The position numbers were made by a program, and so were the translations under genes. This document shows positions 18,780 through 64,000 of a stretch of 64,000 bases of DNA, piece after piece. Every line of letters starts with the position of its first letter. Position 1 is the first letter of the stretch. The DNA lies in assembly GCF_001619985.1 (NCBI RefSeq), contig NW_017264208.1, forward strand, positions 228,936 to 292,935. Direction: 5' to 3'. The stretch comes from Xylona heveae TC161. Taxonomy: Eukaryota > Ascomycota > Xylonomycetes > Xylonales > Xylonaceae. The notes beneath the pieces are model-generated. The model worked only from the letters and a program-made list of their open reading frames with translations. It was not told where the DNA came from and ran no database searches.

Positions 18780-19636
18780 TTGATGGTTGAAATTAGATTT
18801 GGGAAGTAGTAGTTAAAAGATGAGGAAAATTGTAAGGTTGGAGTATTAATAAAATATTATAATAAAAATTTAAATTAGCTTTAAAATTAAAATATTTAAA
18901 ACTTTGAAATTTTAATAATTAACAGTTTGTTGTAATTTATTTGGCTTTATATAAATTATTTAGAATAATAATTTTAAAAATTATATATTATTATATAATA
19001 TTATAAAAATAAAAAGTTTAAATCATTTGAAATTTTAATATAATATTTAATTATTTGAATTAAAAATAATGTATTTTATTAACTCTATAAATAAAAAGTT
19101 AAATATAAAATAAAAATTTTATTTTTAAACAAATAATAATAATTAATAATATAACAAGATAGCTATATAGATAAAAAGCTAAATATATAGTATAAATTTT
19201 TATTTTAATTCAATTATAAATATAAATATTATTTTATAAAATATAAAAATAATTTAAATTAAAAAAATTTATATAGTAATTATTGTACTATATTATATTA
19301 TTTATATATTATATATACTTTTTTTATTTTTAATTAATTATACTATACTTATTATATTTTTAAAAAATCTATCTAGAGTTTTTTAAATAGTTTTATCTAT
19401 ACTATTTTTATTAATATATTACATATATGCAAATAATATAAAATTTTAAATTATCTATCAAACTTTATAAAAAATAATTAAATAGTTTTTATATTATTTA
19501 TTTTAAAAAAAATCTTTTTGTTTTAAAAGTTTTTTTCTCTTAATAAAGTTTTTATTATGACAAATAGCTATAAACCTGGACAAGCTAGACTTTAAAAATA
19601 TATAAATATAGAAAAACTTTATATTAAACTATATAT
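18780..19636. other. AT desert
   Basis: Almost only A and T, with no frame above background. It starts abruptly behind the Csr1-like gene. I see nothing recognisable apart from relics too decayed to name. Confidence 0.7.
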
Positions 19637-20628
19637 ACTTATATGTAAATAGTATAAATTTTTAATTTATTTAAAATTATTTTTAATTAAAACACTTAAT
19701 ATTTTATATTATATAAATAAATTTAAATTATTAATCTAATACTAATAATTTTAAATAATTTTAAATTTTAAATTAATTTAAATAATTTAAATATAATAAA
19801 AAATTTAAAATTTAAAAAAATAAAAAATAAAAAAATAATTATAATAATTTATTTCCTATTTGAAACTGGCTTACTTTACTATTAGTAATAAACTAGAATA
19901 AAAAAAAGTAAGGCAGAAGTTAAATCTATATTATAGTAAGAGAAACTTTTACTAAATAGCTTTATTAGTAATAAACTAGAGCAAAAAAGGCAGAATTTTA
20001 TTATAGTAAAGAAAGCTTTTGCTAGATGGCTCTATTAGTAATAAATTAAAGTAAAGGAGATAGAAGTTAAATTTGTATTATAATAAGGAAAGTTTTTGCT
20101 AGATTATTATATAGAAGATTTAGTAATATAAAATATAAGGAAATAATGCTAGAGTATAATGCTCAAAGATAAAGTCAAAGATTAAAATTTATAAACTAGT
20201 CTAATTTTAGAGCTTAATATTATACCATTGAGCTAAAAGTACTTTTTTTTAAAAAATAATTTAAAATAAAAAATATATATAGTAGAAAAAAATAAAAAAA
20301 ATAAAAAAAATAAAATTTTCAGCTAGAAATTAAATTCAGGTACTTAAATACTTATAATATTTATATATTTCTTAATTAGGAAATAGCATTTCAAATAGTA
20401 TTTTTTTTAAAATAAATTTTTTTATTTTTTTATTTTTTAAATGTGTAAAATTTTTAAATTATTTTTAAATTATTTTTAAATTATTTTATAACATTTAATA
20501 AGATTTAATATTATTATAAAGTTTTTAGAATTTTTAATTAAATATAAATAATTAAAATATATTTTAAATTTAAATTTAATATAGAAATATATTTTATATA
20601 ATTTAAAAATTTATACTATCTACATGTA
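19637..20628 (-). mobile_element. R2 element copy 1 (terminal inverted repeats, tRNA-like modules)
   Basis: Begins near ATGTAAATAGTATAAATTTT and ends with the inverted counterpart near 20,610-20,630, a terminal inverted repeat of about 25-30 bp. Inside, on the - strand, are an A-box-like TTAGCTCAATGGTATAATA (near 20,220-20,240) and a T-arm/B-box-like GAATTTAATTTC module (near 20,325-20,340). It is interrupted by repeat R3 (19,878-20,190). No protein is encoded. Copies 2 and 3 lie at 23,397-24,418 and 25,546-26,036. Confidence 0.6.
19878..20190. repeat. R3 tandem repeat, copy 1
   Basis: Three or more diverged units of roughly 60-90 bp sharing ATTAGTAATAAACTAGA and AAAGCTTTTGCTAGA, followed by a non-repeated tail. 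The same array and tail occur at 40,861-41,240, so it is an interspersed element rather than a local satellite. It is inserted in R2 copy 1. Confidence 0.6.
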
Positions 20629-21339
20629 AGTACTACAATAAATTTAAAAAATATATTAAAAAAGTCTATAGCAAAATTAATAAGGTACAAGTAATAGAAC
20701 AAAAGCTTTAGATAATGTAATAAAAAAAATTAATAGCTTTATATATAATAAACTTTATACAAGTAGCATTAATTGTATCATGAAAATAGATACTATTAAT
20801 TATAATCTTCTATAACAGACTTAAAAAATGAGTTAAATACAAAATAGCTTGTAGAAAACAATTTAAAACAATGTATAAAATAATAGAATTAACTATAAAA
20901 ATCAACAATTATTAATATAAGCAAGAACAAGAAAAAAACATTAAAATCCAGGTTATAAAATAAACTATTAAATAAATATTAAAAAATACCAAAACAAAAT
21001 ACTAAACAGAAATAATCTAATAAATTTTAATACAATACAAAAACAAGACTTTAAAAAACTCATTAATAAAGAAAAAAAGTAATAATACTTTGAGAATAAA
21101 ACTTGTTTATAATGTAAAAAAATAAATACTAGAAAAAAAACTATAGAACAGGTTAAGCCAAGAAATTTAGTAAAAAAAATCAAGAGTATTAATATCTAAT
21201 TTTTGTAAATAATGAAACAAGAAAAATAGAAGATATTTATTAAAAAAAACTTAAATTAAATTCTAGCATAGATTAAATATAAAAAAATTATATATAATAA
21301 TTAAAAGATATAGTTAAAACCAGTATAAAATTTATAGAA
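20629..21339. other. AT desert
   Basis: No feature can be supported; a 71-codon Phe-rich - frame (20,968-21,183) is an effect of base composition. Confidence 0.6.
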
Positions 21340-21785
21340 AAACTTATATTAAACTAAATATAATACTTGAAAAATAAAATTAAATTTAAAACTTAAAATT
21401 CTTTAAATACTAAAATTAATAGTTTATGACTATTTAAAATAATTATATTAAGTTAAATTTAGCTTAAAAAATTTTATAGCAGAGGTTTAAAAATTATTTT
21501 AATTTAGTTTTAAGTTTAAAATAATTAATAATAGTTATAAATTATTAAATATTTATATATGTATTAAAACTATTATTAAACATTCTATATTAAATTAAAA
21601 ATTTTAAATATTAAAAGTTAATAATTAATTAAAATTTAGTTTAATTTAATCTAATTTAATTTCAAATTTATTATTATTTAATTAAATTTTATTTAAATTC
21701 TATTTAAATTTAACTATATTTATAAAATATAAATTATATAAATTATATAAATAATAAATAATAAATAATAAATAGCCATTATTAG
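21340..21785. repeat. R1 repeat, copy 1 (uninterrupted)
   Basis: Very AT-rich sequence nearly identical to 26,400-26,559 joined to 40,514-40,860. This intact copy shows what the insertion site of element D looked like before insertion (..ATTATATTAAGTT..). Confidence 0.65.
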
Positions 21786-21789
21786 ATGA

Positions 21790-23396
21790 TATTGTTTGTT
21801 TATTTATTTATTCTGCATGCAGTCCTAAAGCTATAGCAGGATCTATGGTTTAAATATATAAAATATGTATTGAGCTTTTGGAGATCATTCTAGAATCAAT
21901 CAAGCTAATACTAGATATTATTTATCAAAATAAAACAAAAGAAAATTAGTGTAATATAAAGAAAATAATAAAGATAAACAAAGTAAAAGTAATAAAAGTA
22001 ATAAAAAAGGGTCAAAATTTGGTTTTTTTTTCTGGTTTTTTAATTTTAGAAATTTCAAAAAGTATTTTTATCTTGAAGTCTACTCTAGTCTTATAATATT
22101 TTTTGTTGATGTTGTTTTTCTTGATATAGTAACCATATTCTTGATGCTACTTTAGTAGTATCTAGATATTCCAGTAAGTAGTTCCAGTTTCTTCCAGTAT
22201 ATAATATTTTCAAAGTAAAAACTTTTTTTTTTACTTTTTGTATTAAAACTTTTCTAGCTTCTTTTGTTTGAGAGCAGGACAGTAATAGATGAGCTGAACT
22301 CTAAGTAAAGTTGCAGATAAAGCTGCATTTTTTTAACTCATATATAAATAGCCTGTATAGGTAGGATTTGAAGTAACCATGTCTTATCTTGAGTTGAATG
22401 GCAGTTGTAACTAGTTTTCTTCTAAGGTCTTGGTATCCCTCAAATAGCTTCTAGTGTGGAAAGGTTTGAAACTGTTTATAATATTTTCTTTTAGAAGTAG
22501 TTTGTCATTGGTAAATCTATTGCTCAAGGATAAGCTTTTTTAACTTTCTTTTCAAGTAGCTGTATGAAGTATATGCATCCTTGTGTAGTTTGTTGGTATA
22601 TGTTATTCCATGCTTGGCTGCTTTATCTGCTTCTTTATTTCCTAGTATTCCTTGATGTCCTGGAACCTATTGAAGGTGGATTTGAATATTATTGTCTTTG
22701 AAAACTTGAATAGCAGAAAAAATTTGTAGTAGTAGTTGTTGTCCAGGTCCAGCTATAGGATGTTGTATTGTATCTAAGATACTTTGATTGTCTGTAAATA
22801 TCCAGATAGTTTTGGAATTTATAGTTGATCTATATACTATCCATTTTATTGCTTTAGTTAAAGCAAAAAGTTCTGCATCATAGATTTCCATATATGAGCC
22901 CAGATGCCAGGAAAAAGTATATATATCTTAACAGTATGTAATATAATATCCTGTTCCTGCTATTGTTTGTAATGATTCATCTATATATACTATATAATTT
23001 TCTTCTGGAATTTGTTTTTGAAGGATATTTAGTATTGTTTGGTGTTTTTCTATCATATCAGACTTGAAATACTTGTCTTTGATGATAGATATAGCTGGAA
23101 ATTGTTTTCATGGAGGCCATTTAGTTATTATGTAGGATTCTAGCTCTGGTATAATAGGTAAAATAATAGCTAATTTAGCTAGTATTTGTATGTACTGAGT
23201 AGGATATGCTTTTGATTTTAACTGAGTAGATTGTTGATTCCAGTCTAGATACTTGGTAGTATCTATATCTTGTTCTATTTATAATATTGGAGAAAATTCT
23301 TTAGGAGTTCTTTGTTTAAGTGGATGTGACAAGTATAGTATAGTTATTTTCAATGCATATTTATAGCTGTGAAGTTCTAGCCTGAGGTTGAGAGGT
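21790..23396 (-). mobile_element. LINE 3' fragment (Tad-like), - strand
   Basis: About 1.6 kb matching the 3' part of the LINE at 46,585-48,190. From its 3' end it has an AAAC/AAAT-rich tail after GCATGCAG, the 3' UTR, a C-terminal zinc-binding region, and an RNase H remnant whose 22,667-22,891 frame contains MEIYDAELFALTKAIKW and IFTDNQS. It is 5'-truncated near 23,396 and carries several stops. It is less AT-mutated than the surrounding desert. Confidence 0.75.
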
Positions 23397-24418
23397 ATTT
23401 ACATACAGATAGTATAAATTTTTAAATTGTTTTAAAATATTAAAAATAGTACTAATTTATAATTAATAGATATAAATTAATTTTAATTATTTTAATTATA
23501 TATATATGATTAATTATTTATATTTATATTAATCAATCAAAATTTAATTTAATTTATATTTAATAATTAAAAATAATTTTTTAAATTATATAAAATATAT
23601 TTTTATATTAAAATTAAATTTAAAATATTTAAAATATTTATATATTTAAACTAATTTATATTAATTTAATAATTGTATTGATTTTATTTAAAATAATTAA
23701 ATATAATTTTTTATATAAAGTTTTATATTTAATAATTTTAAATATATTTTAATTATTTATATTTAATTTAAAATTTTAAAAACTTTATAATAATATTAAA
23801 TCTTAGTAAATGTTATAAAATATTTTTAAAATAATTTAAAATTTAAAATTTTTTGAAAATAGTTTTTAATTAATTTAAAATAGTATAAAATTATTTTAAA
23901 AATAAAAAAATATATAAAAAAAATAAAAAATTTTATTTTAAAAAAATATATCATTTAAAAAGCTATTTTTTAATTAGAAAATATATAAACATTATAAGTA
24001 CCTAAGTACCTGAATTTAATCTCTAGCTGAGAAATATTTTTTTTATTTTTTTTATTTTTTTTATTATATATAATTTTTATCTTAAACTATTTTTAGACAA
24101 AAAGTATTTCTAGCTTAATAGTATAATATTGAGCTCTAAGCTTAGACTAGTTTGTAAAGTAAGCTAGTCTCAAATAAAAAATAAATTATTATAATTATTT
24201 TTTTATTTTTTTAAATTTTTTATTTTTCATTATATTTAAATTATTTAAATTAATTTAAAAATATTTTGAAAAAATTTAAAATTTTTTTAAATTATTAGTA
24301 TTAGATTAATAATTTTAAATTTATTTATATAATATAAAATATTAAATGTTTTAATTAAAAAATATTTTTTAAATAAAAAATAATTTTAAATATATTAAAA
24401 ATTTATACTATCTGTATA
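23397..24418 (+). mobile_element. R2 element copy 2
   Basis: Opposite orientation to copies 1 and 3. Terminal inverted repeats ACAGATAGTATAAATTTTTA (23,403-) and its complement ending near 24,418. The tRNA-like modules lie on the + strand: TACCTGAATTTAATCTCTAGCTG near 24,005-24,030 and TTCTAGCTTAATAGTATAAT near 24,107-24,127, the latter followed by an AGACTAG..CTAGTCT hairpin. Confidence 0.6.
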
Positions 24419-24424
24419 TAAAAA

Positions 24425-25247
24425 ATTATATAAGGATGCATATACTTTATACAACCACTGGAAAAGAAGGTTAAAAAAGCTTATTCTTGAGTAATGAATC
24501 TACCAATAGCAAACTAATTTTAAAAGTAAATATTATAAACAATTTCAAACTCTTCTATACTAGAAACTATTTGAGGGATACCAGGACCTTAAAAAAAAAT
24601 TAATTACAACTGCCATTCAACTCAAGATAGGATATAGTTATTTTAAATCTTACTTGTACAGGCTACCTGCATATGAGTCCAAAGAATGTAGCTCTATTTG
24701 CAACTTTATCCAGAGTTCAGCTTATTTATTATTACCTTGCTATCAAAAATAAAGAGCTAGAAATATTCTATTATAAAAAATAAAGAAAAAAGTTTTTACT
24801 TTAAAAGTACTATATACTGGAAAAAACTGGAACTACTTACTAAAATATCTAGATACTATTAAAATAATATCAAGAATATAGTTACTACATCAAGAAGAAT
24901 ATTATCAACAAAAAACACTATAAAACTGGAGTAGATTTCAAGAAGAAAATACTTCTTGACATCTTCAAAATCAAAAAACCAGATTCTGGTTTAAAAAAAA
25001 CCAAACTTTAACTCTTTTTTATTGCTATTATTGCTCTCATTCTGTATATTTTTATCATTTTCTTTATATTATATTATTTTTTTTCTTTTTATTATATTTA
25101 ATAAATGATATCTAGTATCAGCTTGACTAATTCTAGAGTGACCTTGAAAAGTTTAATACACATTTTAAAAATATATTTAAACTACAGACTCTGCTATAGC
25201 TTTAGGGCTGCATGCAGAATAAATAAACAAACAAATAAACAATAACT
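24425..25247 (+). mobile_element. LINE 3' fragment, + strand
   Basis: Homologous to about 46,590-47,390 in inverse orientation, including the GCATGCAG 3' end and the AAATAAAC-type tail at 25,205-25,247. Heavily C-to-T mutated, with no usable frame. With the fragment at 21,790-23,396 it forms an inverted pair around R2 copy 2. Confidence 0.7.
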
Positions 25248-25545
25248 TGATAAAGTAAGAATTAACAATAAAAATTAACTAATAAAAGTAAAATGACAAT
25301 TTATAGCAATTAATTATATTAAAAAATTTAAAAACAAGTTGTTAGTTAATACAACTTCTAGCAAGATATAAAAATAAAAAAGGCCATTAAATAAATTATT
25401 TAGAAAAATATTATTAAAAGTTCGACTTTAGAAAATTAATATAAATACTAGAACCTAAAATATTAATTAAAAGTTTAGTAAAAAAAGCAAAAAAAATAAA
25501 AACAAAAAATGGAAAAAATATTTATTATAAAAGATGAGTAGTCTA
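25248..25545. other. AT-rich spacer
   Basis: Nothing recognisable. Confidence 0.5.
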
Positions 25546-26036
25546 CTTACATGTAGATAATATAAATTTTTAATTTATTTAAAATTATTTTATATTATAT
25601 AAATAAATTTAAAATTATTAATTTAATATTTAATAATTTTAAATATTTTTAAATTAATTTAAATAATTTAAATATAATGAAAAATAAAAAATAAAAAAAA
25701 ATAAATAAATAATTATAATAATTTGTTTCCTATTTAGGACTAGCTTACTTTATAAATTAATCTAACTTTAAAACTTAATATTATACTATTGAGCTAAAAA
25801 TACTTTGTTTTACAAATAATTTAGGATAAAAAATATATATAATAAAAAAAATTAAAAAAATAAAAAAAATATTTTTCAGCTGGGGATTGAATTCAGGTAC
25901 TTAGGTACTTATAATGTTTATATATTTTCTAATTAGAAAATAGCTTTTTAAATGGTATATTTTTTTAAAATAAATTTTTTTATTTTTTTATATATTTTTG
26001 TATTTTTAAAATAATTTCATACTATCTGCATATAGT
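25546..26036 (-). mobile_element. R2 element copy 3 (shortest)
   Basis: Starts CTTACATGTAGATAATATAA and ends TACTATCTGCATATAG (inverted repeat ends). It lacks the R3 insertion of copy 1. On the - strand, the T-arm-like GAATTCAATCCCCAGCTG (near 25,876-25,895) is the best-preserved example, and TTTAGCTCAATAGTATAATA lies near 25,780-25,800. Confidence 0.6.
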
Positions 26037-26399
26037 TTTCTTGAAAGAAAAAATAGTATTAAAACCAAAACTAATATATCTAGAGATATAATAATAAGCT
26101 AAAGCATTAAAAAAATATCTTGTAAAGAGCATTAAAAAATATATTAAACTTAATAAAAGTTTAATAAAATTTTTAATACTATAGATATCAAAGAAAAATA
26201 ACAAGCTATAATTATTTATAGATTATTAATAGTTAAATAATAAAATAATCAAAAATATATATTTATTACTACTTATCTAGAAATTTTAAAACTAATTGTT
26301 AAAAGCTAAATAAATAACAATATTTAATATTCAAGAAAAATATTATCAAATCTATATAAAAAAAATAAAAAAATAAAAAATAGGTTTTAAAACTTATTA
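26037..26399. other. AT-rich spacer
   Basis: Nothing recognisable apart from low-complexity A/T frames. Confidence 0.5.
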
Positions 26400-26559
26400 T
26401 AACTTATATAAATATCTAATAATACTTAAGTGTCTTTTAATAAAAATAAAAAACTAAATTTAATTAAATATAATACTAGAATAATAAAATAAAACTTAAA
26501 ACTTAAAATCTTTTAAATATAAAATTAATAATTTATAACTATTTAAAACAGTTATATTA
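26400..26559. repeat. R1 repeat, copy 2, left part
   Basis: Matches the left part of R1 copy 1; continues at 40,514 after element D. Its last five bases TATTA (26,555-26,559) are repeated at 40,509-40,513 as target-site duplication. Confidence 0.65.
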
Positions 26560-26713
26560 TGTTACAGTCTTGCTTGCTTTATGTTGCTCCTTTTACTTCT
26601 GTACTTTAGTATATTAAGTGACAACAACCATATATAAGGTTGTTGTCAAGAGCTATGTAAGAATCAAGCTTCTTTACACTCTTATACCATGTTCATTGTC
26701 ATAGACTATAACA
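26560..26713 (+). repeat. Left 154 bp terminal repeat of element D
   Basis: Begins TGTTACAGTC and ends GACTATAACA, so the unit itself has TG..CA ends and short internal inverted ends like an LTR. Matches the reverse complement of 40,355-40,508 over its whole length, with transition-type differences. Confidence 0.8.
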
Positions 26714-26947
26714 ATTGATAGTGACACTTTTTTCAATCCATTTGGATTCTCCAGACTATATGGTTTTCCTGTAGTCATCTTCTCTTACTGTTCTACAAAG
26801 TGAGAGCTATACAATACTAGTCAATGGTGACCTATTGTCATAAGTCCCTGGTCTTCTTACTCCTACTATTACCTTTCATAGCATTGTCTTATATCTGTTG
26901 CTTATTGTTTTGTTTAAACCATTGTCCTTCTTATCACTTATACTTGT

Positions 26948-35465: not shown

Positions 35466-35479
35466 TAGGGGCCTCCAAG

Positions 35480-49439: not shown

Positions 49440-52400
49440 TCATGGTTTAGTTGGATACAGACAATGAAACCTAGTTAGCAGGTAATCTACATGGTCAACA
49501 TTCTCTTCTGGTAACCATTCAAGTGCATCATAACCTGTCTATTTAACCAAGTATTCAATCCATTCCTGCCTTTCTTGGGAATCCAGGATGTCCTCTACCT
49601 CATATACTTCTTCTCCATCTACCAGTACTGGTAGTACTAGGGTAGCTATTTGGCCTGGAAGTAGGTCCCCTGCTGCTGGTGATAGTTGGGAAACATGGAA
49701 GACATTGTGAATTTGCATGCTTTTGGGTAGATCCAGTTCATATATGTAAGGGTTTAGTACTCATTTGATAGTAAAAAGCCCCAAGTTCTTCCAATCTAAT
49801 TTTTGCAAGGGACATTGAGTTCTTATCTCTTTTGTACTTAACCATACTTGATTGCCTTCTTTATATGTAGGTGCTGGTAGTCTTCTGCAGTTGGCATTAT
49901 CCTCATAACACATTTTAGCTTTGTTAATCTCTGCTCATAATAGTGTTAGGATTTCTTCCATGTGCCATCCAAAGTCAAAACCTTCATTTGCATTAGGTGT
50001 TTCAGCTAGTTCTAGGAACAGGGTTAGTTCAAATCTCATACAAGGGTTGTAACCATAATTCATGTAGAATGGAGTGCACTCAATTGCTGACAATTTAGTA
50101 TTATTTAATGCAAATTTGGCTAGGCCTAACCATAGTAACCAGTTGTCTTGTAGGTAAGAGACATAACTATGCAGGTACTGTTCCATTATGGCATTGAGTC
50201 ACTTAGTTTGTTCATTTATCTCTGGGTGATAGGCTGTGGATAGTAATGCCTGGATCTTTAAGATGTAGCATACTACTTGCCAGAAGTCTAAAACAAATTG
50301 TGTGCCTCTATCTAACACTATTGTCTCTGGGAGCCTGTGTAGTGAGAATATTTAGTTTACAAATAGTTTAGCAACATCTTGTGCTGTGGCTGTAGTTGTT
50401 GTAGGTAAGAAATGTCTCATCTTAGTTAGCCAGTCAGTTACTACCAGTACTGCATTGTACCCTCCTGATAGGGGCAGCCCTGTGACAAAATCCATTGAGA
50501 TGTCCTTCTAGCATTGCATGGGTATTGGTAGTAGTTTCAGTACTCTATACAAGCTTTAGTAGTGTGGTTTGCTCCATGTACAGGTATGGCAGTTCCTCAC
50601 ATACTAGGCTACTATAGCTTACATGCCTGGCTAGTAGAAGGCCTAGCTGATTAGTTCCAGTGTACAGGCTCTTCCTGAGTGTCCAGCTGCTGGTGAGTCA
50701 TGGTGCTAGCAACAGATAAGGGTTCAGAGGTTTTTGAAGTCTGGTATGTATAGTTATTCTCTATAAAATAGCTGTTAATTGGCCTCCTGGCAGTCTGCTA
50801 GAGTTATCAATCTGGATTGATACTGTCCCAAGTATAGCACTTGGAATACCTTTTGGACCCATTCATCTTGCATATAGCCCTCTTCTAGGAGTTTTGATAG
50901 TGTTAGTTCTTCAGGTTCTGGGGACTCCAATCCCCAGCAGAGTTGTGTAGATGGTTCTGGGTCAACTAAGGTTTGGTGTTCTTCCTGCCTGGGTCTTAAC
51001 TGTTGTTGAGGTAGCATGCTACTGTGCTCTGGTTCTGCTAGTGGCTTGTAGTTAGAGTTGGTGTTACTGTATAAGCTAGAGTTGTTGCTATCTTTGAACT
51101 GTAGTGGCTGTAGTCTTAGTGGAACTGGTTCTACTTGGTGTGGTTTGATCACTATCTGTTGTTAGTGTTTTAACTACAGGTTGCCTGGTTCAGGCTAATT
51201 AGCAGACTTCTAGGTAAGGGTGTCTGGTTTCTCTCCTAGTCTCCTGGGGCAGTAGTGTATCCTGAAGTCAAACCATGAGAGATACTCTGCCCATCAAGCC
51301 TGGTGCTGGTTAAAGGTTTTGGTAGACATGAAGTGTTCCAGGTTTTTATAGTTGCTGAAGATCTTAACTAGGTGCTTTGCTCCCTCAAGCTTGTGTCTCC
51401 ACTCTTCAAACACTAGGATGATAGCCATTAGTTCCTTGTCATGGATCTCATAATTGCATTCAGTGGGTGAGAACTTCTTGGAAAAGTATGCTACAGGCTG
51501 CAATATGTCCTTTTTGTCATGTTGAGAGTGTACTACTATAGCTACCAGGTCTGAGGCATTAGTTTCCACAATGCTTTTCTTGTCTGGGTCATATAATACT
51601 AGTATTGGTATGGTGTAGAATAACATCTTGAGATCCTTGAAGGTGTGTTGACACTCCTGAGTCTATTCCTACAGACTATCTTTGCAGGTTAGTCTGGTTA
51701 GGGGGGCTACTATCTTGAAAAAGCCCTTTACAAACTTTTAGTAAAAGTTAGTGAACCCCAAGAAGCCTTGAATGTCTTTTACTTTCCAGGGTGTCTCCCA
51801 TTCCCTAACTGCAGCCACCTTTTCTAGGTCCATTTGTACACTTCCTTATCCAATTAGTAAGCCTAGGTATTTGACTTTAGTGGTGTAGAACTTGCATTTA
51901 GTAATATCCACCTATAAGCCTGCACCCTTTAGTGCTTGTAGTACTAGTTTTACATGGTTTTTGTGCTCTTTGAGATTATCACTGTAAATGAGTATGTCAT
52001 CTAAATACACCATGTAGAAGATGTCTAGGTATTCCCTGAGTATATCATTGATAAAGTTCTGCCATGAGCCTGGGGCTCTACACAGCCCAAAGGGCATAAC
52101 TAAAGACTTAAACTATCTATAATAGGTTTGGAAGGCTGTTAGGGGCTTGTCCCCTTCTTGCATCCTAAGTTGGTTGTAAGCCATGATGATATCTAGCTTT
52201 GTGTAGTATTGGGCCTTGCTTAGCTAGTTGAGGGTCTCTTTAATAAGTAGAATCAGGTAATAGTCCTTAATAGTAATGGTGTTAAGTCCTCTATAGTCTA
52301 CACATAATCAAAGGCCCTCCCCTGGTTTCTTAACAAACATGATGGACATAGTAAAGGGTAAGTAGCTAGCTCAAATGAACCCTTTCTAAAGGTTCTCTTC

Positions 52401-53333
52401 AAGGAATTTCTTGAGCATTTTGAGCTCTTTAACTGACATGTTAGCCAATCATTCAATTGGTAGAGAGGTTCCTGGTTAAAGGTTTATAGTATGGTTATAT
52501 AGTTGATGAGAGGCTAATGTATTAGCAAGCTTTCAAGAAAACACCTCCAAGTAGTCATGGTATTCAGCAGGTAAAATAGTAGTAGGGTCAACTTCTGGTT
52601 TAGTTTTCAAGGTGATCTCTATATCTCTCATAGATACTATATAAAGCTTGCAATCTCTTCTCCTAGCTAACCATGTAAATGGTTTTGCTCCTATAAGGTT
52701 TATCTAAATTGATGTTGTGCAGTCATTCTTTGCAGGGGCCCCAGCTATGTTTAGGCTAGAGTATGCATTAGCAGTGGGTAGGCACAAGGACAGTAGCATA
52801 GGTAGTAACATAGGTGGTGAGTAAACTAAGTGTGTAGGGGTTGTGTCCTCCTTGTCAGGCATGTCTACTAACCCTGCTAATACAGCAGCTTGTTGTCCTT
52901 GTAGGCAGTGTTTTTAACAGTAATTCAAGTTGAAGATAACTGTGTTTGAACCCTAGTAGGTGTATACATTGTGTTTTTGTAACCATTTAATACCAAGAAC
53001 CACTAGGTAGTGGCCTAGCTGTGTAACCAGGAACTTAACTAATTCTTGGTGGTTACTAGTTACTATAGTTGCTTGTGAGTATTGTATAAGCAGTCCTGAT
53101 GCAATAGTCCAGCCATCTACTACTGTGAGCATTCAAGGGTTGTTGAGTTTAGCAAGTAGCATTTGGTGTTGTTAGGTAAAGTGTTGGTCAATAAAGGCTA
53201 GGGTAGATGTGCCACTGTCAACTAGGGCATGGGTAATGATTTCTCTGAAGTTAAAAATGAGTTTGATTGCTATGACCATGTAGTCTCCTTCTAAACTATC
53301 TTTAAGAGAACTAGCTAAGATTGAGATTGACAG
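49440..53333 (-). pseudogene. Pol of copy B
   Basis: Protease, RT ([20 protein letters not shown].., YLDDILIYS at about 52,000), RNase H (110 open codons, 51,626-51,294, VETNASDLVAIVVHS), integrase and chromodomain ending at 49,440. The longest open frames of the three copies are here, yet stops remain in each domain. Confidence 0.88.
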
Positions 53334-53359
53334 TAGGGGCCTCCAAGGGTAACTATCCC

Positions 53360-54652
53360 TGGAGGCACCTAGTTTTCTACAGTAGGCTTGCTAGATCTGG
53401 AGCTAGTAGTGACCTAGAGAGTAGCCTTGCTTAGATATACATGTTTACCCTCAGGACAGTTTGCTACAGTGTGGCCTAGCTTGCTACAGTTATAGCACTT
53501 AAATTTCTTACAGCTACTTGCTATATGTCTACTTCCTCTGTAGTAAGAACAGAGACCAAGTTCTTGGTGTTAGGCTTTTTCCTCTGGTGGGACTGGTCTA
53601 CATTGTACACTAGATAGGTCTATGAGAGTAGCTCTGAAGTTAGAGGCTAAATCAGAGGGGTAAATAGTAGGAGTAGACATAGTAGTACTAACCATGGTTA
53701 GTGCAACACTAGAGGGAGCTGTAGTGGCTACATAACTATAACAACCTCCTTGATAACAAGAGATTATAGAGCTTGGGGTGGACTTTGAACCATAAGTGCC
53801 TCTCAGAGGCACAGGGAAGTAGTCTTGCATGGTGACTATTTTGTTGTCTACCTCCTGTAAGAGCTGAATATAGTCATCTAGTTTGCTAGGGACCTTGTAA
53901 GTGATCATGGCATTTGTTAACTTGTAGGAGATACCTCCACTCAATATGCTTTTCAGCACCATTTCATTAAATCCAGTATTGGGGGCTAAGTGGTAGAAGG
54001 TGGCAATGAAGGTTGAAAAAGACAAGTTTGCTTGGTTAAGGTAGCAAAGCTCCCACTAAGTAGTGGCCTGCTTGTTAGGGTTACTAAAGGCTTATTCTAG
54101 CATCTTGAGCAAGTCCATTACAGTAGTATAACCTTGGAACTGATTATTAGCTGAGACTAATGGCATGACTTACTTAAGGGCTGTTCCTTCTAGGTAGCTC
54201 ATAATATAGAGCATCCTGGCATTTTTGTCTAGGAAGTAGTCATGGTTTATACCAAGCTTTGAGTGGATGAGTGTAAGGAATGTATTGACCTCATCATGCT
54301 TTCCACTAAATTTTGGTAGATCAGGGTGTGTAGCTAAGCATTTGAAAGACATTTTCTCATGGATTTTAGAGAGGGTATCAATCAGTTAATTACTCAAGGC
54401 CTGGACCTTTATGACAAAGACATGTTCTCATTCTTCAGCTTGCTTAGTAACTGTGATAGTTTAATTGCATTTAATGTAGGTCTACTTCTGGGCTAGCTCT
54501 GCTTAGGAGAAGGTGTTAGTAAGGTTATAAATAAAATAAAACCAGCTATTGAGGTCTTTTGAAACCAACTGGACAAACTATTCCAGGATGAGAGTAGCAA
54601 GGTCAATGTCACCAATAGGTGGGAATGGAGGTATAATAGGTTCAAAAGGCAT
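53360..54652 (-). pseudogene. Gag of copy B
   Basis: ATG at 54,652 (MPFEP..). Capsid pieces are 54,352-54,170 and 54,025-53,570 (the latter open for 151 codons), then CCHC knuckles near 53,450-53,560. Stops interrupt the N-terminal half. Confidence 0.82.
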
Positions 54653-54747
54653 TTTCTCAACAAGCAGTCACTCAATTAAGATGTCACTTGTAGTAAATGA
54701 AAGCTAAGCCCTGGTAGAGGCTTTGATTAAGAGAAGGTACTTTGTAG

Positions 54748-54963
54748 TATTACAGCAATAGTAGTGTGGAGCTTTAAAAGTGATGGCATTGACTAAAACA
54801 AAGCATGAAGAAGGAAAACAAAACTATCTACAATTCTGCCAACTATATCTCTCACTCACTTAGAGTATATAGTCTACCCATGGTTACTAGGTAACCTTTA
54901 GTGGCACCAGGTAACCCTAGGTGGTTCCAGTCCTTGCTCCTGTCTAGAGGTTGGTCCATGACA
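54748..54963 (-). repeat. 5' LTR of chromovirus copy B
   Basis: 216 bp; its outer internal end reads TATTACAGC where the family has TGTCA-type ends, so the terminal dinucleotide itself is mutated. Confidence 0.88.
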
Positions 54964-54968
54964 AATCT

Positions 54969-56574
54969 TTTCTAAAATCTTGCCTAAGCAGTTAAGAAGT
55001 GTAATTATCCTATATGCTTTTGGTTAAGTATAATCAAGCTTTGATGGTTTCTTTAGTACTGCTCCTATGCCTTGTCTCCAGCTAATAGGATAATATCCTT
55101 GGTCTAATAGTAGTTGATATACTAGAGTAAACCATCTTGGAATGTATTGAAATGCTTTTTGAATGATTGCAAAAGATAATTGATCAGGTTCTAGAGCCTT
55201 TTTTGGAGCAGAAGTTTGAATGGCATGCTTGATTTCTTGTTGAGTAATCTTTAGCCAAGAGCATATTTGAGCCTTGTATTAAACTCCTGTAGTTTCTTGA
55301 CTTGTAGGTAGTGTAGGAAATAAAGTAGTTAAGAAAGCTGAACATTTTTCTTGAAAAGTAGTTTTTACAGTAGCTGGTCCTTGGATAGAAGGAAGTTTTT
55401 CTACTTTTCTTGGATTGATATAGTGATATGCTTTGAAAATATCAACTCCTTTAACATTTATTAAAAAGTTTGTCCAGGATGTTTCTTTAGCTTGTTTAAT
55501 ACTTCTAAAGAAACTATTTCTTTTAGTAGTATATTCTTTCCATAGATCTTGGCTTTTATTTTGCTTTCATTGTCTCTTTGCTTGAGCTACTTTAGTTCTT
55601 TGAGATGATAGTTGGTCATTCTACCATGGTTTAGATCTTGGAGATAGTTTAAATTGAGGAATAAATCTTTGACATGCTATTTTAATAGCATGTTGTAGTG
55701 TACATGCTATTTTTTCTAGCCTGGTAGTTAGAATAGTATCTTCTAGTATATCTTTTTGTAGTTGATCTAGATGATACTTTTCTTGCTTCTGGATTATGTT
55801 TTAAAAGATCTTCCAGTTGGCCTTATTAACATTAAAAGAAGTATGTATAGGGTGGATAACCTCTTCTAATTTTGCTCCTTTTAATGTAAATTTAATTGCT
55901 TCATGATCTGATCCTGTTGTCTAGTCTTCAAGTATTTGCCAATCTTGTATATAAAGATATAGATTGGGTGTAGAAAATGCTAGATCTAATACTAAAAAAG
56001 TATTTCTTTGATTTCCAAGATAAGTTATTAGATCAGGAGTATTTATTAAGAGAAATTAATGTTGTGTAAGCCATGTAACTAGTACATCTGCTCTAATAAA
56101 AGTAGTTTTCATAGAGTTCCACCATGCATGGTATGCATTAAAATCTCTACAGATAAGTGTTCTAGACCATGGTTGTATTTTGTATAATAGTCTCTTTACT
56201 GTCCATAGAGAAGGTGTTGTGGTTTGTTGAGCTTTATTATAGATATTAATAATGAATGTTGGTAAAATGGTAGTGCTTTGTACTTGTAAAATAAAACAAT
56301 CTTCATCTTGAATCATTGTTTCAACAGTATATTGTAGGTCTGGTTTAAGCTTTGTAATAAAAGCTAATGCTCTAGGTCTTTTTGATAATGACAAAGGAAA
56401 TATTGTTGTAAATGAAAGATGTGATATAGTGGTGTTGTTTGGTCCAATCCAGGGTTCTTGTAGTAAAAGAATGTTTGTTGAAGATGTTGCTAGATCTAGA
56501 CATATATACATAACATTAATAAATCTAGCACAATTGTGTTGGACTATTTGAATATCTATTGGATTTCTATTCAT
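54969..56574 (-). pseudogene. ORF2 5' part of - strand LINE: endonuclease and RT N-terminus
   Basis: ATG at 56,574 overlaps the ORF1 stop as TAATG. The endonuclease frame to 56,056 shows IQIVQHNCARF, LLLQEPWIGPNN and ICRDFNAYHAWWNS, the metal-binding and catalytic segments of APE-type endonucleases. Downstream, to the insertion at 54,969, frames are broken. Confidence 0.8.
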
Positions 56575-57927
56575 TAATAGTCCATGGCAAGGTGGTCTGT
56601 AGTTGATGTAGTTGGTAATAAAGCTTGGTATATAGAGCATTCTTTTGCATTAACCTTGTAACTTCCTAAGCAGTTGCTGCATTTAATAATGCTATGAAAA
56701 CAAGCCTTGCCTATAGTTAGTAGAGAACATATTGTACATGTATGTTGTTTTGTATTATGTAATTCTGCACAGATTTAACATTTTGCTTTTTTAGTACATC
56801 TAGTATGTTGATGTCCAAATTGTTGGTATTTAAAGCATTGATTTATTGGTTTATTGTCTTCATATTTAACTATTCTAGCTGATAGTCCAGCTATAAGAAG
56901 TCTGTTTCTTAAGGCTTGCTTGGCTTCTTGTTCTGTTTTAAAAGCTAGTACCAGAAAAGAATGTTCCTTGTATTGTCTTGTTTCTGTAGATGTAATCCAA
57001 GTAAGTAAATATACAAGCTTTAGATCTTTGTTATATGTTTCAAGTTCTTCTTGAATTGCTTGTAATTCTTGAGGTCCTTGAAATACTTTTGTAGAAATTC
57101 CATGAGCAACTATTTTGTGCCACTTCTCATCTTTTGCAATTTGTATTACTTCTAGTTCAGAGGCCCAGATAGCTTTGTGTTGTAATAGTTGATAAGCTGT
57201 ATTGTCTTGATAAGTTGTTAAGACAATGTTTGTCTTTAACTGAGATTGAGTAACACTTGCTACCAGCAGATCATTGATTTTTGCTTCTTTAAGTTTTTTG
57301 TTAATCTGGTTCCTGATTTCCATAGCATTGAAAGAATTTGGCATCTGTTTAGGAGTAACAATTACTCTCCTATCTCTAAAGGTAGTAATTGGTTTGATTA
57401 CTTCTTTAGTTTTGGTCTTAGCTTTTGAGACTGTAGTCCATGAATTGTCTTTTGTACTAGATCCTTTAGCTATAAAAGCATATGTTGTAGATGGTTTTGA
57501 TTTTTGATTGATAGGCTGGAATTGAAAAGTAGTTGGTAGTGTAGTTTGTTTAATTGCTTGTTGTTCAATAGTTGTTTGAAGTATTTGATCAAGCTTTGTA
57601 GTAATTTTAGTTTTAAATTGTTAAAATTCTACTTTTGAAACTTGCTCTTGACTTTTTGTTGATAGAATATCTTGTTCCATGACTTGAACACTTTTTCTTT
57701 TTTGAATAGCTTGTAGTAGCTGGTTGATGTTTTGAATATCTTGAGTTGTTTGTTGCTAAAAGTTTTTGGAAATAGTTGGTGTAGTTAAGCTTTGAAGTAG
57801 TTGTTGGTTTTGTTTAACTACCATTTGGATTTTTTCCTTTATAGTAGTGTTGGTAGCTTGATATTTTTTCTTTTTTAAGTGTAGCTGTCTTGGTTTTGGA
57901 GTTGGAGATTCTTGTAGTACTTGGACT
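56574..57927 (-). pseudogene. ORF1 (main part) of - strand LINE
   Basis: Nucleic-acid-binding protein. 57,344-56,775 is open for 189 codons (MPNSFNAMEIRNQINKKLKE) and ends in Cys/His knuckles (CFKYQQFGHQHTRC with Cys to Tyr, then CTIC, CSNC) that continue in frame past one TAA to the true end at 56,574. The N-terminal part is beyond chromovirus C, at 63,724-63,855. Confidence 0.8.
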
Positions 57928-58143
57928 TGTCACAGACCAACCTCCAGACAGGAGCAAGGACTGGAACCACCTGGGATTACCTGGTGCCACTGAAGGTTAC
58001 CCAGCAACCATAGGTGGACTGTGTACTCTAAGTGAGTGAGAGATATAGTTAGTAGAATTGTAGATAGTTTTGTTTTCCTTCTTTGTACTTTGTCTTAGTC
58101 AATGCCATCACTTTTAAAGCTCTACACTGCCATTGCTATGACA
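57928..58143 (+). repeat. 5' LTR of chromovirus copy C
   Basis: 216 bp, TGTCACAGACC..GCTATGACA; followed by CTACAAAGCA, the conserved start of the internal region. Confidence 0.92.
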
Positions 58144-58238
58144 CTACAAAGCACCTTCTCTTAATTAAAGCCTCCACCAGGGTTTAGCTTTCATTTACTG
58201 CAAGTGACATCTTAATTGAGTAACTGCTTGTTGAGAAA

Positions 58239-59590
58239 ATGCCTTTTGAACCTATTATACCCCCATCCCTGCCTATTGGCAACATTGACCTTGCTACTCT
58301 CACCCTGGAACAGCATGTCCAGTTGGTTTCAGAAGACCCCAATAGCTGGTTTCATTTTATTTATAACCTTACTAACACCTTCTCCCAAGTGGAGCTAGCC
58401 TGGAAGCAGACCTACATTGAATGCAATCAAGCCATTGTAGTTGCTAAGCAAGCTAAAGAATGAGAATGTATCTCTGCTATAAAGGTCCAGGCCTTGAGTG
58501 ATCAACTAATCAATGCCCTCTCTAAAACCTATGAGAAAACATCTTCCAAATGCTTAGCTACACACCCTGATCCACTGAAGTTTAGTGGAAAGTATGATGA
58601 GGTTGATACATTCCTTGTACTTATCTGCTCAAAGCTTGGTATAAACCATGACCACTTCCTAGATGAAAATGCCAGGATGCTCTATGTTATGAGCTGCCTA
58701 GAAGGAACAGTCCTTAAGCAAGTCATGCTGTTAGTCTTAGCTAATAATTAGTTCCAAGGTTATACTACTGTGGTGGACTTGCTCAAGATGCTAGAACAAG
58801 CCTTTGGTGACCTTGACAAGCAGGCCACTGCTCAGTGGGAGCTCTGCCACCTTAACCAAGCAAACTTACCTTTTTTGACCTTCATTGCTACCTTCTGCTG
58901 CTTAGCTCCTGATACTGGATTTGATGAAATGGTGTTGAAAAGCATATTGAGTAGAGGTATCTCCTATGAGTTAACAAATGCCATGATCACTTATAAGGTC
59001 CCTAGCAAACTAGATGACTATATTGAGCTCTTACAGAAGGTGGACAACAAAATAGTCACCATGTAAGACCACTTCCCTGTGCCCCTGAGAGGCACTTATG
59101 GTTCAAAGTCCACCCCAAGCTCTATGATCTCCTGCTATCAGGGAGGTTGTCATAGTTATGTAGCCACTACAGCTCCCTCTAGTGTTGCACTGACCATGGT
59201 TAGTACCACCATGTTTACTCCCACTATTTGCCCCTCTGATTCAGCCTCTAACTTTGGAGCTACTCCCATGGACCTATCCAGTGTACAATGTGGACTAGTC
59301 CTACTAGAGGAGAAAGCCTAACACCAAGAACTTGGCCTCTGTTCTTACTGTGGAGGAAGTAGACATACAGCAAGTGGCTGTGAGAAATTTAAGTGCTATA
59401 ACTGTAGCAAGCTAGGCCATGCTATAGTGAACTGCCCTGAGGGCAAATGTATGTGCCTGAATGAGGCTACTCTCCAGGTTGCTACTAGCTCTGGATCTAG
59501 CAAGCCTACTGCAGAAAACTAGGTGCCTCCAGGGATAGTTGCCCTTGGAGGCCCCTACTATCAATCTTAATCTCAGCTAGTTCTCTTGAA
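58239..59590 (+). pseudogene. Gag of copy C
   Basis: ATG at 58,239. The capsid-like region is open in long pieces (58,494-58,751, 58,770-59,066, 59,079-59,321). Two CCHC knuckles near 59,340-59,435 are intact (CSYCGGSRHTASGC and CYNCSKLGHAIVNC, both CX2CX4HX4C). Single stops separate the pieces. Confidence 0.87.
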
Positions 59591-62500
59591 GATAGTTTAG
59601 AAAGAGACTACATGGTCATAGCAATCAAACTTGTCTTTAACTTTAGAGAAATCATTACCCATGCCCTAGTTAACAGTGACACATCCACCCTAGCCTTTAT
59701 TGACCAACACTTCACCTAACAACACCAAATGCTACTTGCTAAACTTAACAACCCTTGAATGCTCACAGTGGTAGATGGCTAGACTATTGCATCAGGACTG
59801 CTTACATAATACTCACAAGCAACTATGGTAACTAGTAACCACCAAGAATCAGTTAAGTTTCTGGTTATATAGCTAGGCTACTACCCAGTGGTTCTTGGTA
59901 TTAAATGGTTATAAAAACACAATATACACACCTACTGGGGTTCAAACACAGTTATCCTCAACTTGAATTACTGCCAAAAACACTGCCTACAAGGACAACA
60001 AGCTGCTATATTAGCAGGGTTAGTGGACATGCCTAACAAGGAGGACACAACCCCTATACACTCAGTTCACTCACTACCTATGCCACTGCCTATGCCACTG
60101 CCCTTGTGCCTATCTACTGCTAATGCATACCCTAGCCTAAACATAGCTAGGGCCCCTGCAAAGAATGACTGCACAACATCAATTCAGATAAACCTTATAG
60201 GAGCAAGACCATTTACATGGTTAGCTAGGAGAAGAGATTACAAGCTTTATGTAGTATCTATAAGAGATATAGAGATCACCTTGAAGATTAAACCAGAAGT
60301 TGACCCTACCACTATTTTACCTGTTAAATACCATGACTACTTGGAGGTGTTTTCTTAAAAGCTTGCCAATACATTAGCCTTCCATTAACTATATGACCAT
60401 GCCATAAACCTTCAACCAGGAACTTCTCCACCAATCAGACAATTGACCAACATGTCAGTTAAAGAGCTCAAAGTACTCAAGAAATTCCTTGAAGAGAACC
60501 TTCAGAAAGGGTTCATTCAAGCTAGCTGCTTACTCTTCACTGCACCCATCATGTTCATTAAGAAACCAGGGGGGGGCCTTTAGTTATGTGTAGACTATAG
60601 AGGACTCAACACCATTACTGTTAAGGACTGTTACTCAATTCTACTTATTAAAGAGACCCTTGACTAGCTAAGCAAGGCCTAATACTACACAAAGCTAGAT
60701 ATCATCATGGCTTATAATCAACTTAGGATGTGAGAAGGGGACAAGCCCCTAATAGCCTTCTGAACCCATTATGGGCAGTTTGAGTCTTTAGTTATGCCCT
60801 TCAGGCTGTGTAGAGCCCTAGGCTCATGGTAGAACTTTATCAACAACATACTTAGGGAATACCTGGACATCTTCTGCACAGTGTATTTAGACAACATACT
60901 CATTTACAGTGATAATCTCAAAGAGCACAAAAACCATGTAAAACTAGTACTACAAGCACTAAGAGATACAGGCTTACAGGTGGATATTACCAAATGCAAG
61001 TTCCATACCACCAAAGTCAAATACCTAGGCTTACTAATTGGACAAAGAAGTGTATAAATGAACCTAGAAAAGGTGGCTACAGTTAGGGAATGAGAGATGC
61101 CCTGGAAAGTAAAAGATGTTCAGGGCTTCTTGGGGTTCACTAACTTTTATCAAAAGTTTGTAAAGGGCTTCTCCAAGATAGCAGCCCCCCTAACCAGACT
61201 AACCTGCAAAGACAGTCTATGGGAATGAACTTAGGAGTGTCAACACACCTTTGAGGATCTCAAGATGTTATTCTGCACTGCACCAATACTGGCATTATAT
61301 GACCCAGACAAGGAAAGCATTGTAGAAACTAATGCCTTAGACCTAGTAGCTGTAGTAGTACACTCTCAACATGATAAAAAGGGCATATTGTGGCCTGTAG
61401 TGTACTTTTCCAAGAAGTTCTCACCCACTAAATGCAATTACAAGATCCATGACAAGGAACTAATGGCCATCATCCTAGCATTTAAAGAGTAGAGACACAA
61501 GCTTGAGGGAGCAAAGCACCTAGTTAAGATCTTTAGTGACCATAAAAACCTGGAACACTTCATGTCTACCAAAACCCTTAACCAGCACCAGGCCTGATGG
61601 GCAGAGTATCTCTCATGGTTTGACTTCAGGATACATTACTGCCCCAGGAGACTAGGAGGGAAACCAGACACCCTTACCTAGAAGTCTGCTGATTAGCCTA
61701 AACCAGGCAACCCATGGTTAAAACACCAACAGCAGATAGTAATCAAACTACACCAAGTAGAACCAGTTCCACTAAGACTACAGCTACTATAGTTTGAAGA
61801 TAGCAACAATTCTAGCTTATACAGTGACACTAACTCTAACTATGAGCCACTGGCAGAACCAGAGTACAGCAGCATGCTACCTCAATGACAGTTAAGACCC
61901 AGGTAGGAAGGATGCCAAACCTTAGTTAACCTAGAACCACCTACACAGCCCTACTGGGGATCAGAGTCCCCAGAACCTGAAGAACTAACACTATCAAAAC
62001 TCCTAGAAGAGAGCTATATGCAAGATGAATGGGTCCAAAAGGTGTTCCAAGCACTACACTTAGGACAGTACCAATCTAGATTGATAACTCTAGCAGACTG
62101 CCAGGAGGCCAATCAATAGCTATTCTATAGGGAACAACTATATATACCAGACTTCAAAAACCTCTGAACCCTTATCTGTCACCAGCACCATGACTCACCA
62201 GCAGCCAGACACTCAGGAAGAGCCTGCACACTAGAACTAATTAGCTAGGCCTTCTACTGGCCAGGCATGCAAGCTACAGTAGCCCAGTATGTAAGGAACT
62301 GCCATACTTGTACACAGAGCAAACCACACTACCAAAGCCCATATAGAGTACTGAAACTACTACCAATACCCATGTAATACTAGAAGGACATCTCAATGGA
62401 TTTTGTCACAGGGCTGCCCCTATCAGGAGGGTACAATGCAGTACTAGTAGTAACCAACCAGCTAACTAAGATGAGACATTTCTTACCTACAACAACTATG

Positions 62501-63451
62501 GCCACAGCACAAGATGTTGCTAAACTATTTGTAAACTAAATATTCTCATTGCACAGGCTCCCAGAGACAATAGTGTCAGATAGAGGCATACAATTTATTT
62601 TAGACTTCTGGCAAGCAGTATGTCACATCTTAAAGATCTAGGCATTACTATCTACAGCCTATCACCCAGAGACAGATGGACAAACTAAGCAACTCAATGC
62701 CATAATGGAACAGTACCTGTGTAGTTATGTCTCTTACCTACAAGACAACTGGTTACTATGGTTAGGCCTAGCCAAATTTGCATTGAATAATACTGAATTG
62801 TCAGTGATCAGGTGCACCCTATTCTACATAAATTATGGTTACAACCCTTGTATAGGATTCAAACCAACCCTGTCCCCAGAACTAGCTGAAACACCCAATG
62901 CAAATGAAGGTTTTGACTTCAGACAGTACATGAAAGAAATCCTAACACTATTACAAGCAGAGATCAACAAAGCTAAAATGCATTACAAGGATAATGCCAA
63001 CTGCAGAAAACTACCAGCACCTACATATAAAGAAGGCAATCAAGTATGGTTAAGTACAAAAGAGATAAGAACTCAATGTCCCTTGCAAAAATTAGATTGG
63101 AAGAACTTGGGGCTTTTTACTATCAAATGAGTACTAAACCCTTACATATATGAACTGGATCTACCCAAAAGCATGCAAATTCACAATGTCTTCCATGTTT
63201 CCCAACTATCACCAGCAGCAGGGGACCTACTTCCAGGCCAAATAGCTACCCTAGTACTACCAGTACTGGTAGATGGAGAAGAAGCATATGAGGTAGAGGA
63301 CATCCTGGATTCCCAAGAAAGGCAGGGATGGATTAAATACTTGGTTAAATGAACAGGTTATGATGCACTTGAATGGTTACCAGAAGAGAATGTTGACCAT
63401 GTAGATTACCTACTGACTAGGTTTCATTACCTGTATCTAACTAAACCATGA
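59562..63451 (+). pseudogene. Pol of copy C
   Basis: Protease with Asp to Asn (site 59,669-59,674), RT with YLDN (60,890-60,895), RNase H (61,265-61,492), integrase H2C2 (CHTCTQSK) and core, 141 open codons at 62,705-63,130, chromodomain before the TGA at 63,449-63,451. Numerous TAG/TGA interrupt it. Confidence 0.87.
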
Positions 63452-63507
63452 CAACAAGACCATTATATAGCCTTCATAGAGCTCAGAACTGTTAAAGGGG
63501 GGGGTAA

Positions 63508-63723
63508 TGTCACAAACCAACCTCTGGACAGGAGCAAGGACTGGAACCACCTGGGGTTACCTGGCACCACTGAAGGTTACCCAGCAACCATGGGTGGACT
63601 GTACACTCTAAGCAAGTGAGAGATATAGTTGGTAGAATTGTAGATAGTTTTGTTTTCCTTCTTTGTGCTTTGTCTTAGTCAATGCCATCACTTTTAAAGC
63701 TCTACACTGCCATTGCCATGACA
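63508..63723 (+). repeat. 3' LTR of chromovirus copy C
   Basis: 216 bp, TGTCACAAACC..GCCATGACA; preceded by the polypurine tract. Confidence 0.92.
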
Positions 63724-64000
63724 GACTAAAGGATCTATATCTGGCTCTTTCTCAATTGGTTTGATAGTTGAAGCCATCTTGACTAAAGTATTTTCAATCA
63801 AAGCAATGGAAGATGGTGGTAAAGATGGAAAGTTTGTTGTAGGTGTCCAACTCATACCCTTTCAAAGAGCAAGTCCTGCCTTCAAACTTACTCTTTGCTA
63901 CCTCTCTGAATTACCCTCTCAAGAAGCAAGACTTTACTTACAGGTATCCTCCAAGCCTTACTCCTTGCTACCAAGGTTATACTTACTCTTCTTCACTAAA
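63724..64000 (-). pseudogene. ORF1 N-terminus and 5' UTR of - strand LINE
   Basis: ATG at 63,855 (MSWTPTTNFPSLPPSSIALI), open to the junction with chromovirus C at 63,724; it continues at 57,927. Upstream bases align with 44,045-44,177 of the + strand copy. The element runs off the window edge. Confidence 0.78.

Follow-up and report, generated by a model that had tools for sequence, protein, structure and literature searches.

In Coccidioides and Uncinocarpus (Onygenales), Sharpton in 2009 reportedly described a CpG-biased mutation resembling repeat-induced point mutation (RIP), with loss of CpG from the repeats of these Pezizomycotina. Here we describe CpG loss in a 64,000-nt stretch of the contig labelled C16 of Xylona heveae TC161 (Pezizomycotina, Xylonomycetes), referred to below as the window, whose repeat half contains three copies (A, B, and C) of a long terminal repeat (LTR) retrotransposon and several pieces of a long interspersed nuclear element (LINE). 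Other contigs are labelled in the same way, and L-numbers denote the genome loci examined. We propose, with a probability of roughly 0.8, that a CpG-first RIP-like mutator has acted on these repeats and that the LINE lineage was shorn of CpG under it. Previous studies are cited by PMC number.

The repeats of U. reesii have raised CA and TG, and its genome contains one each of Dim-2, RID, and DNMT5 (PMC7862722). Xylona differs from Coccidioides and Uncinocarpus in belonging to another class (Xylonomycetes) and in having a CpG-free LINE. As in Neurospora, C-to-T transitions are confined to duplicated DNA, with strand runs in some copies and A+T-rich relics; unlike Neurospora RIP, which is CpA-biased (PMC7862722; PMC4352252), the Xylona process takes CpG first and completely, and CpA second. 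In Microbotryum, TpCpG hypermutation was found together with Gypsy expansion, with an average of 1.7 mutated sites out of 35 in each copy, and the discussion of that study proposed that element variants without target sites may be favored (PMC5381629). Xylona is similar in its CpG-type mutator and in the selection on its elements. However, the Microbotryum target is a trinucleotide and shedding was only proposed there, whereas Xylona has an element without the target; its CpG-free LINE would be a concrete case of target shedding (PMC5381629). A CpG-first signature in an ascomycete was also reported for the transposable elements of Tuber melanosporum (PMC4352252), where it was read as methylation of the type induced premeiotically (MIP; PMC4165359), whereas the Xylona repeats are completely mutated. 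The MIP of Ascobolus differs likewise, as repeats there are methylated and not mutated. CpG was considered probably not to be a RIP target in PMC4352252, although its background section names two Aspergillus species with CpG in addition to CpA. Our literature search, which covered listings and excerpts and few subscription journals, found no earlier description of a CpG-free fungal transposon.

CpG is almost completely absent from the repeat half. Between 18,780 and 64,000 (45,221 nt, GC 0.328) there is a single CpG, compared to about 1,214 expected from the C and G counts (observed/expected ratio, o/e, 0.00), whereas positions 1-18,770 (GC 0.458) contain 921 CpG (o/e 0.93). An earlier note on this DNA had described the repeat half as lacking CG and the gene half as full of it, and the counts agree. 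The border is sharp, with the final gene-side CpG at 18,767 and the lone CpG of the repeat block at 25,423. The 38,577 nt from there to the window end (including 10 N at 48,039-48,048) have none, and past the window the next CpG is at C16:299,205, beyond a gap of 3,415 N. Chance is excluded as the cause of this absence. The features of the repeat half are as follows, with LINE identities given to the copy on C11:

18,768-64,000, unstranded: CpG-free repeat block by CpG counts, continuing past the window to C16:299,204
18,800-26,800, unstranded: very A+T-rich zone (GC 0.167), holding the block's only CpG (25,423)
21,790-23,397, minus strand: older LINE fragment, 85-94%
24,420-25,238, plus strand: older LINE fragment, 78-83%
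31,292-37,170, minus strand: LTR retrotransposon copy A (repeat families D1/I2; RVT_1 and rve matches)
43,205-46,583, plus strand: LINE copy 1, ORF1-side part, 91-93%
46,583-49,171, minus strand: LINE copy 2, 3' part, 95-97%, with an RVT_1 match at 48,560-49,183 containing one stop
49,160-55,039, minus strand: LTR retrotransposon copy B, inside LINE copy 2 (RVT_1 at 51,858-52,307; LINE alignment breaks at 49,171 and 54,964)
54,964-57,927, minus strand: LINE copy 2, middle part, 93-94%
57,894-63,736, plus strand: LTR retrotransposon copy C, inside LINE copy 2 (RVT_1 at 60,557-61,033; LINE alignment breaks at 57,927 and 63,724)
63,724-64,000, minus strand: LINE copy 2, 5' part, running off the window end, 98% over 277 nt

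LINE copy 2 runs on the minus strand from 64,000 down to 46,583 and is interrupted by copies C and B, which are therefore younger than it. In copy A, the reverse transcriptase (RT) match (RVT_1, 33,990-34,439) contains five stops, and the integrase match (rve) lies at 32,355-32,633. The name chromovirus for copies A-C is that of the earlier reader and has no chromodomain search behind it.

In the dinucleotide counts of the two window halves, the repeats have a CpA o/e of 1.07 (genes, 1.05), a TpG o/e of 1.10 (1.01), a TpA/ApT of 1.20 (0.71), and a (CpA+TpG)/(ApC+GpT) of 1.12 (1.29). The earlier note had described moderate GC with abundant CA and TG, and had taken CpA to be spared. The description fails at 18,800-26,800, where GC is 16.7% and both CpA (0.75) and TpG (0.83) are under expectation; this zone probably represents old, repeatedly mutated repeats. 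The bulk reading that CpA is spared is itself overturned by the three-copy patterns and per-context rates given below, which make CpA the second target. Its loss is masked in bulk counts because conversion of CpG to CpA or TpG refills both dinucleotides. The usual three RIP-index thresholds are 1.1 (TpA/ApT), 0.75, and >0 (composite). Of 45 one-kb bins in the repeat block, 36 are over 1.1 for TpA/ApT and 26 have a composite above 0, and a single bin passes all three thresholds, while none of the 18 one-kb bins of the gene half passes any. X. heveae has been placed in Class 2, the members of which have 0.37-0.65% of the genome RIP-positive (PMC7882544), and the 1 of 45 bins passing all thresholds, with a positive composite in 26, may partly explain this placement.

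Comparison of individual copies shows how CpG was lost. Three RT-integrase families were aligned, namely A-C (three copies), G2 (seven), and G3 (three), with LTRs shown for A-C only. Alignment columns in which some copies read CA and others TG were taken as lost ancestral CpGs, and columns with AC and GT as the mirror control. No CG is present in any aligned copy of the three families. CA-with-TG columns number 117 in full-length A-C, 170 in G2, and 86 in G3, equivalent to 1,799 ancestral CpG instances, whereas the control columns number 45 in G2 and 16 in G3; in the inner part of A-C there are 4 control columns vs. 56. The three-copy patterns of A-C (CA,CA,TG in 64 columns, CA,TG,TG in 33, and all three states in 20) imply, if the copies are independent, that about 60% of CpG became CA, 31% TG, and 9% TA. 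CA,CA,TA columns were seen 107 times vs. about 19 predicted, and TG,TG,TA columns 132 times vs. about 5, and this excess indicates that CpA was mutated in its own right. The per-copy rates for CpA, CpC, and CpT are 0.158, 0.047, and 0.024 in A-C, 0.270, 0.128, and 0.060 in G3, 0.163, 0.095, and 0.097 in G2 (five of seven copies), and 0.176, 0.172, and 0.105 in the LINE (four of seven copies), with the CpA rates of A-C, G3, and G2 containing a minor share of CpG-derived sites. The order of contexts is thus CpG (~100%), far ahead of CpA (changed to TpA at ~16-27% of sites per copy), and then CpC and CpT.

Very few transversions accompany these changes. The inner 3.4 kb of A-C contain 830 transitions and no transversion, and the transition:transversion ratio is 39:1 in G3, 8.6:1 in G2, and 5.8 in the LINE. 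Full-length A-C pairs have 449-548 transitions and 15-23 transversions each, the latter mostly in the outermost columns; when 7 columns at the start of the alignment and 90 at its end are set aside, the three pairs have 2, 4, and 2 transversions left. The LTR pairs of A, B, and C (aligned parts of 212-216 nt each) have 56 transitions and 1 transversion in total. Total CpG loss at near-zero transversions fits a RIP-like burst. Along the 117 columns of A-C, moreover, TG and CA are arranged in 36, 37, and 35 runs compared to 53-57 when shuffled (p ≤ 0.0002 in every copy). This comparison supports the reading in the earlier note of a CpG-preferring C-to-T process, here in a genome of Pezizomycotina. 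In the RT spans (six of the seven G2 copies, A-C, and G3), 13 CGN columns no longer encode Arg, but this is true by the definition of the columns and was discarded as evidence.

CpG loss extends across the genome. Outside C16, repeat islands sampled on nine contigs contain 1 CpG in 106,701 nt vs. 2,421 expected (overlapping loci merged; the count omits the C16 loci, the genes at L001-L004 and L050, and the two diverged matches, L008 and L009). An RVT_1 profile search gave 32 matches, of which 20 loci were read, all with 0 CpG; among the DDE_1 (3/3) and rve (12/13) loci, 11 of 15 have none. L053 has one CpG, by position the same one as in L024, and L060 (C9:901,169-904,384), a lone rve-like match adjoining the putative RID-like gene discussed below, has 113 (o/e 0.66). 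Two diverged single matches (L008 and L009, 71-72% identity, 344 and 143 nt) retain 10 and 8 CpG, and are either remnants or host genes. Neurospora RIP requires at least 80% identity over 400 nt (PMC3017866). In Xylona, CpG is lost from repeats and normal in genes, as for a process that acts on duplicated DNA and spares single-copy DNA, with few single-copy remnants in the comparison. A search with the LINE (query 44,310-46,580) found 16 places on eight contigs, in one cluster each (C1, C2, C3, C4, C5, C11, C14, and C16), with further candidate clusters on C6, C9, and C10 from the RT matches. One cluster per contig possibly marks the centromeres; L057, L061, L065, and L042, which are CpG-free, lie near contig ends or off the clusters, so a centromere is not required.

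The earlier note had explained the missing CpG of the repeat half by a CpG-directed C-to-T process acting on all repeats. Repeats are indeed affected, young copies included, but a single process is too simple, since CpG left the three RT-integrase families only once their copies had separated and the LINE was CpG-free before it spread. The LINE alignment has 3 CA-with-TG columns of 3,589 (control AC-with-GT, 7), so few that the LINE must have been CpG-free before its copies split. Pairwise comparisons of the older copy L043 with other LINE copies give 2-4 CA/TG columns (control 1-3), and the CpG-free state predates the split of L043 as well.

In the LINE copy on C11 (L026), 895 codons read open (941 when the full frame is counted), with RVT_1 and RNase_H matches. 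The LINE may be of the Tad-like type, in which an EN-RT-RNaseH ORF2 with ORF1 upstream is expected. PF14529 and PF03372 are found in many homologues, and the upstream pieces of the C11 copy have no Pfam match. The 895-codon frame contains 0 CpG, with no NCG codon and no C|G codon boundary, and all 27 of its Arg codons are AGR (AGA/AGG) vs. 57 of 178 in four host frames. Of the 238 positions with 80% or more conservation among 110 homologues (from the 120 matches listed, those longer than 850 aa), the protein keeps 214. Conserved Arg is retained at 8 of 11 positions, with Lys, Ile, and Thr at the other three. This CpG-free, protein-keeping LINE is the surprising part of our findings, and looks like a retrotransposon rid of the mutator's main target. 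As a change from CGN to AGR needs a transversion, which is beyond C-to-T mutation, the CpG loss was probably gradual. On C14, an inverted pair of LINE copies (L015, 654,930-660,218; L016, 646,701-651,989) lies near a contig end and has 2 differences in 5,289 nt, which represents a very recent duplication, a conversion event, or an assembly effect. A comparison of stop codons, in which the LINE appeared to lack TGA relative to the LTR-type elements, was weak (in 20 RT matches, TGA accounts for 3 of the 27 stops in the LINE and 12 of the 50 in the other elements) and is not used.

The closest of 272 homologous proteins is 50% identical to the LINE protein (over 94%), and the named homologues come from other fungi, which raises the possibility that the LINE is CpG-free through horizontal transfer from a CpG-poor genome, and not through adaptation to this mutator. 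Its silent sites were compared to those of five host frames. Silent C before G is found at 0/52 sites in the LINE (0%) vs. 244/558 in the host (44%), before A at 39/161 (24%) vs. 230/364 (63%), before C at 31/101 (31%) vs. 149/401 (37%), and before T at 50/90 (56%) vs. 164/355 (46%; p 0.13). On the opposite strand, G-ending codons make up 0/96 of NCR in the LINE vs. 148/369 in the host, 8/85 vs. 142/216 of NTR, and 5/61 vs. 90/258 of NGR. Loss relative to the host thus follows CpG > CpA > CpC > CpT, the mutator's own order, and the LINE lineage therefore seems to have been long exposed to it. This order, together with a CpG-free state older than the L043 split, makes horizontal transfer unlikely as the source of the CpG-free state.

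In the account that we prefer, a homology-directed RIP-like C-to-T mutator would act on repeated DNA in Xylona heveae, perhaps premeiotically and in dependence on RID. CpG is its first target and is converted without remainder, with CpA next and weaker effects on CpC and CpT, and repeated rounds may have lowered the GC of the oldest repeats to 10-20%. LTR-type elements would still have CpG on entry and be stripped of it very quickly. A single LINE lineage, long under the mutator, would have shed every genic CpG while retaining its protein, and its new copies would thus face only the weaker CpA/CpC/CpT activity, which may have enabled the LINE to persist. The mutator is a CpG-first version of a known RIP-like process. 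We lean slightly toward a further step, in which the LINE was recoded CpG-free, Arg included, via cumulative mutation and purifying selection, and so would still be copying where every examined LTR-type copy is CpG-stripped, and in which the mutator's preference for CpG may go with the presence of a CpG-specific DNMT5 beside RID and DIM-2. Hardening of the LINE is not immunity, as the upstream parts of the C11 copy are interrupted and all six other LINE RT matches read carry 1-10 stops.

The search for RID- and DIM-2-type methyltransferase genes suggested in the earlier note gave candidates for both, and for a DNMT5-like gene. A PF00145 profile search of the genome returned four matches, which we read as three genes. 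L001 has BAH and methylase domains, with PDB 9bap as its top PDB match (620 bits), and is read as a putative DIM-2-like gene. L002/L004 has a PF00145 domain with an EQT motif, which we take to mark a RID/Masc1-type methyltransferase. L003/L050 (C11:745,500-752,039) has an SNF2 domain and is collinear over residues 388-1750 with PDB 7r76, deposited as "DNA repair protein Rad8" and assumed here to be the Cryptococcus DNMT5; it is a DNMT5-like gene, predicted to encode a CpG maintenance methyltransferase. This gene is kept although the examined repeats offer almost no CpG. Table 2 of PMC7862722 gives RID, Dim-2, and DNMT5 for both U. reesii and Tuber and no DNMT5 for Neurospora. Verticillium dahliae also carries DNMT5 (PMC13297926). 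We hypothesize that the presence of DNMT5 might be linked to CpG-type RIP. Two questions become testable in Xylona: the identity of the methyltransferase behind the RIP context, and whether recoding is a way for transposons to escape from mutational defence.

The DNMT5-like gene would also suit a passive decay, in which repeats methylated at CpG by DNMT5 and DIM-2 slowly lose 5-methylcytosine by deamination to T, with no RIP-like mutator. CpG signatures in fungi were explained in this way by Amselem et al. (2015; PMC4352252), and those of Austropuccinia were interpreted likewise (PMC8063080). However, at least 351 CpG instances were lost in A-C (117 columns in three copies) vs. 8 transversions in ~17,000 inner pair-columns, which would require CpG to change at a rate at least 10,000-fold that of transversions per site. 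The youngest copies show no intermediate CpG o/e, as copies that are nearly free of transversions hold no CpG, and passive decay leaves both the strand runs and the CpA, CpC, and CpT changes in the same copies unexplained. We consider it improbable. Least credible is that the LINE is dead and fully mutated, spread among centromere-like islands by segmental duplication, with a frame open by luck: the single cluster on each of eight contigs, the C14 pair (which shows that duplication or conversion does occur), and the stops in the six other RT matches agree with this, but an open frame of 895 codons covering RT and RNase H, the conserved positions kept, and Arg replacements other than the CpG products Cys, Trp, His, Gln, and stop do not.

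Several observations weigh against the CpG-first mutator and the recoded LINE. The G2 and LINE alignments, which include flanks and older copies, show 1.5-1.7% transversions. Strand runs at CpG columns are significant (0.05) in three of seven G2 copies and absent in the other four, and are found in none of the three G3 copies; changes found in a single copy, whatever their context, form significant runs in one of three A-C copies (p 0.12, 0.50, and 0.0004) and in none of the six LINE copies with enough sites. Overlapping mutation rounds could be behind the missing runs. CpG is also retained at some repeat loci, with the DDE_1 transposase locus L051 (C2:1,204,521-1,208,030) having 4 CpG in 3,510 nt, 3 of them within one 300-nt bin, and L064 having 4, all within its final 337 nt. 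For the LINE, the silent-site gradient is not clean, since G-ending NAR (bottom-strand CpT) is reduced too (32/184 vs. 236/519 in the host), and silent C loss could partly be post-insertion; against the latter counts that the C11 frame is stop-free despite 95 codons (CAA 71, CAG 4, and TGG 20) one C-to-T-type change from a stop. Low Arg is also seen elsewhere, as the share in the LINE protein is matched or undercut by 8 of 110 homologues, and R/(R+K) was therefore dropped as proof of recoding. Finally, L002/L004 is read as RID/Masc1-like from the EQT motif and by exclusion, and no match named RID or Masc1 is among the best 120 of its 835 matches.

The gene half adjoining the block contains the following features:

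1-18,767, unstranded: gene half with normal CpG by CpG counts
2,955-4,277, plus strand: Zuotin/DnaJ-type protein
8,245-9,063, plus strand: Peptidase_C54
17,559-18,734, minus strand: CRAL_TRIO

Between the first two of these proteins, a hexamer repeat at 6,101-6,211 encodes a long run of glutamates within the minus-strand frame 5,377-7,605.

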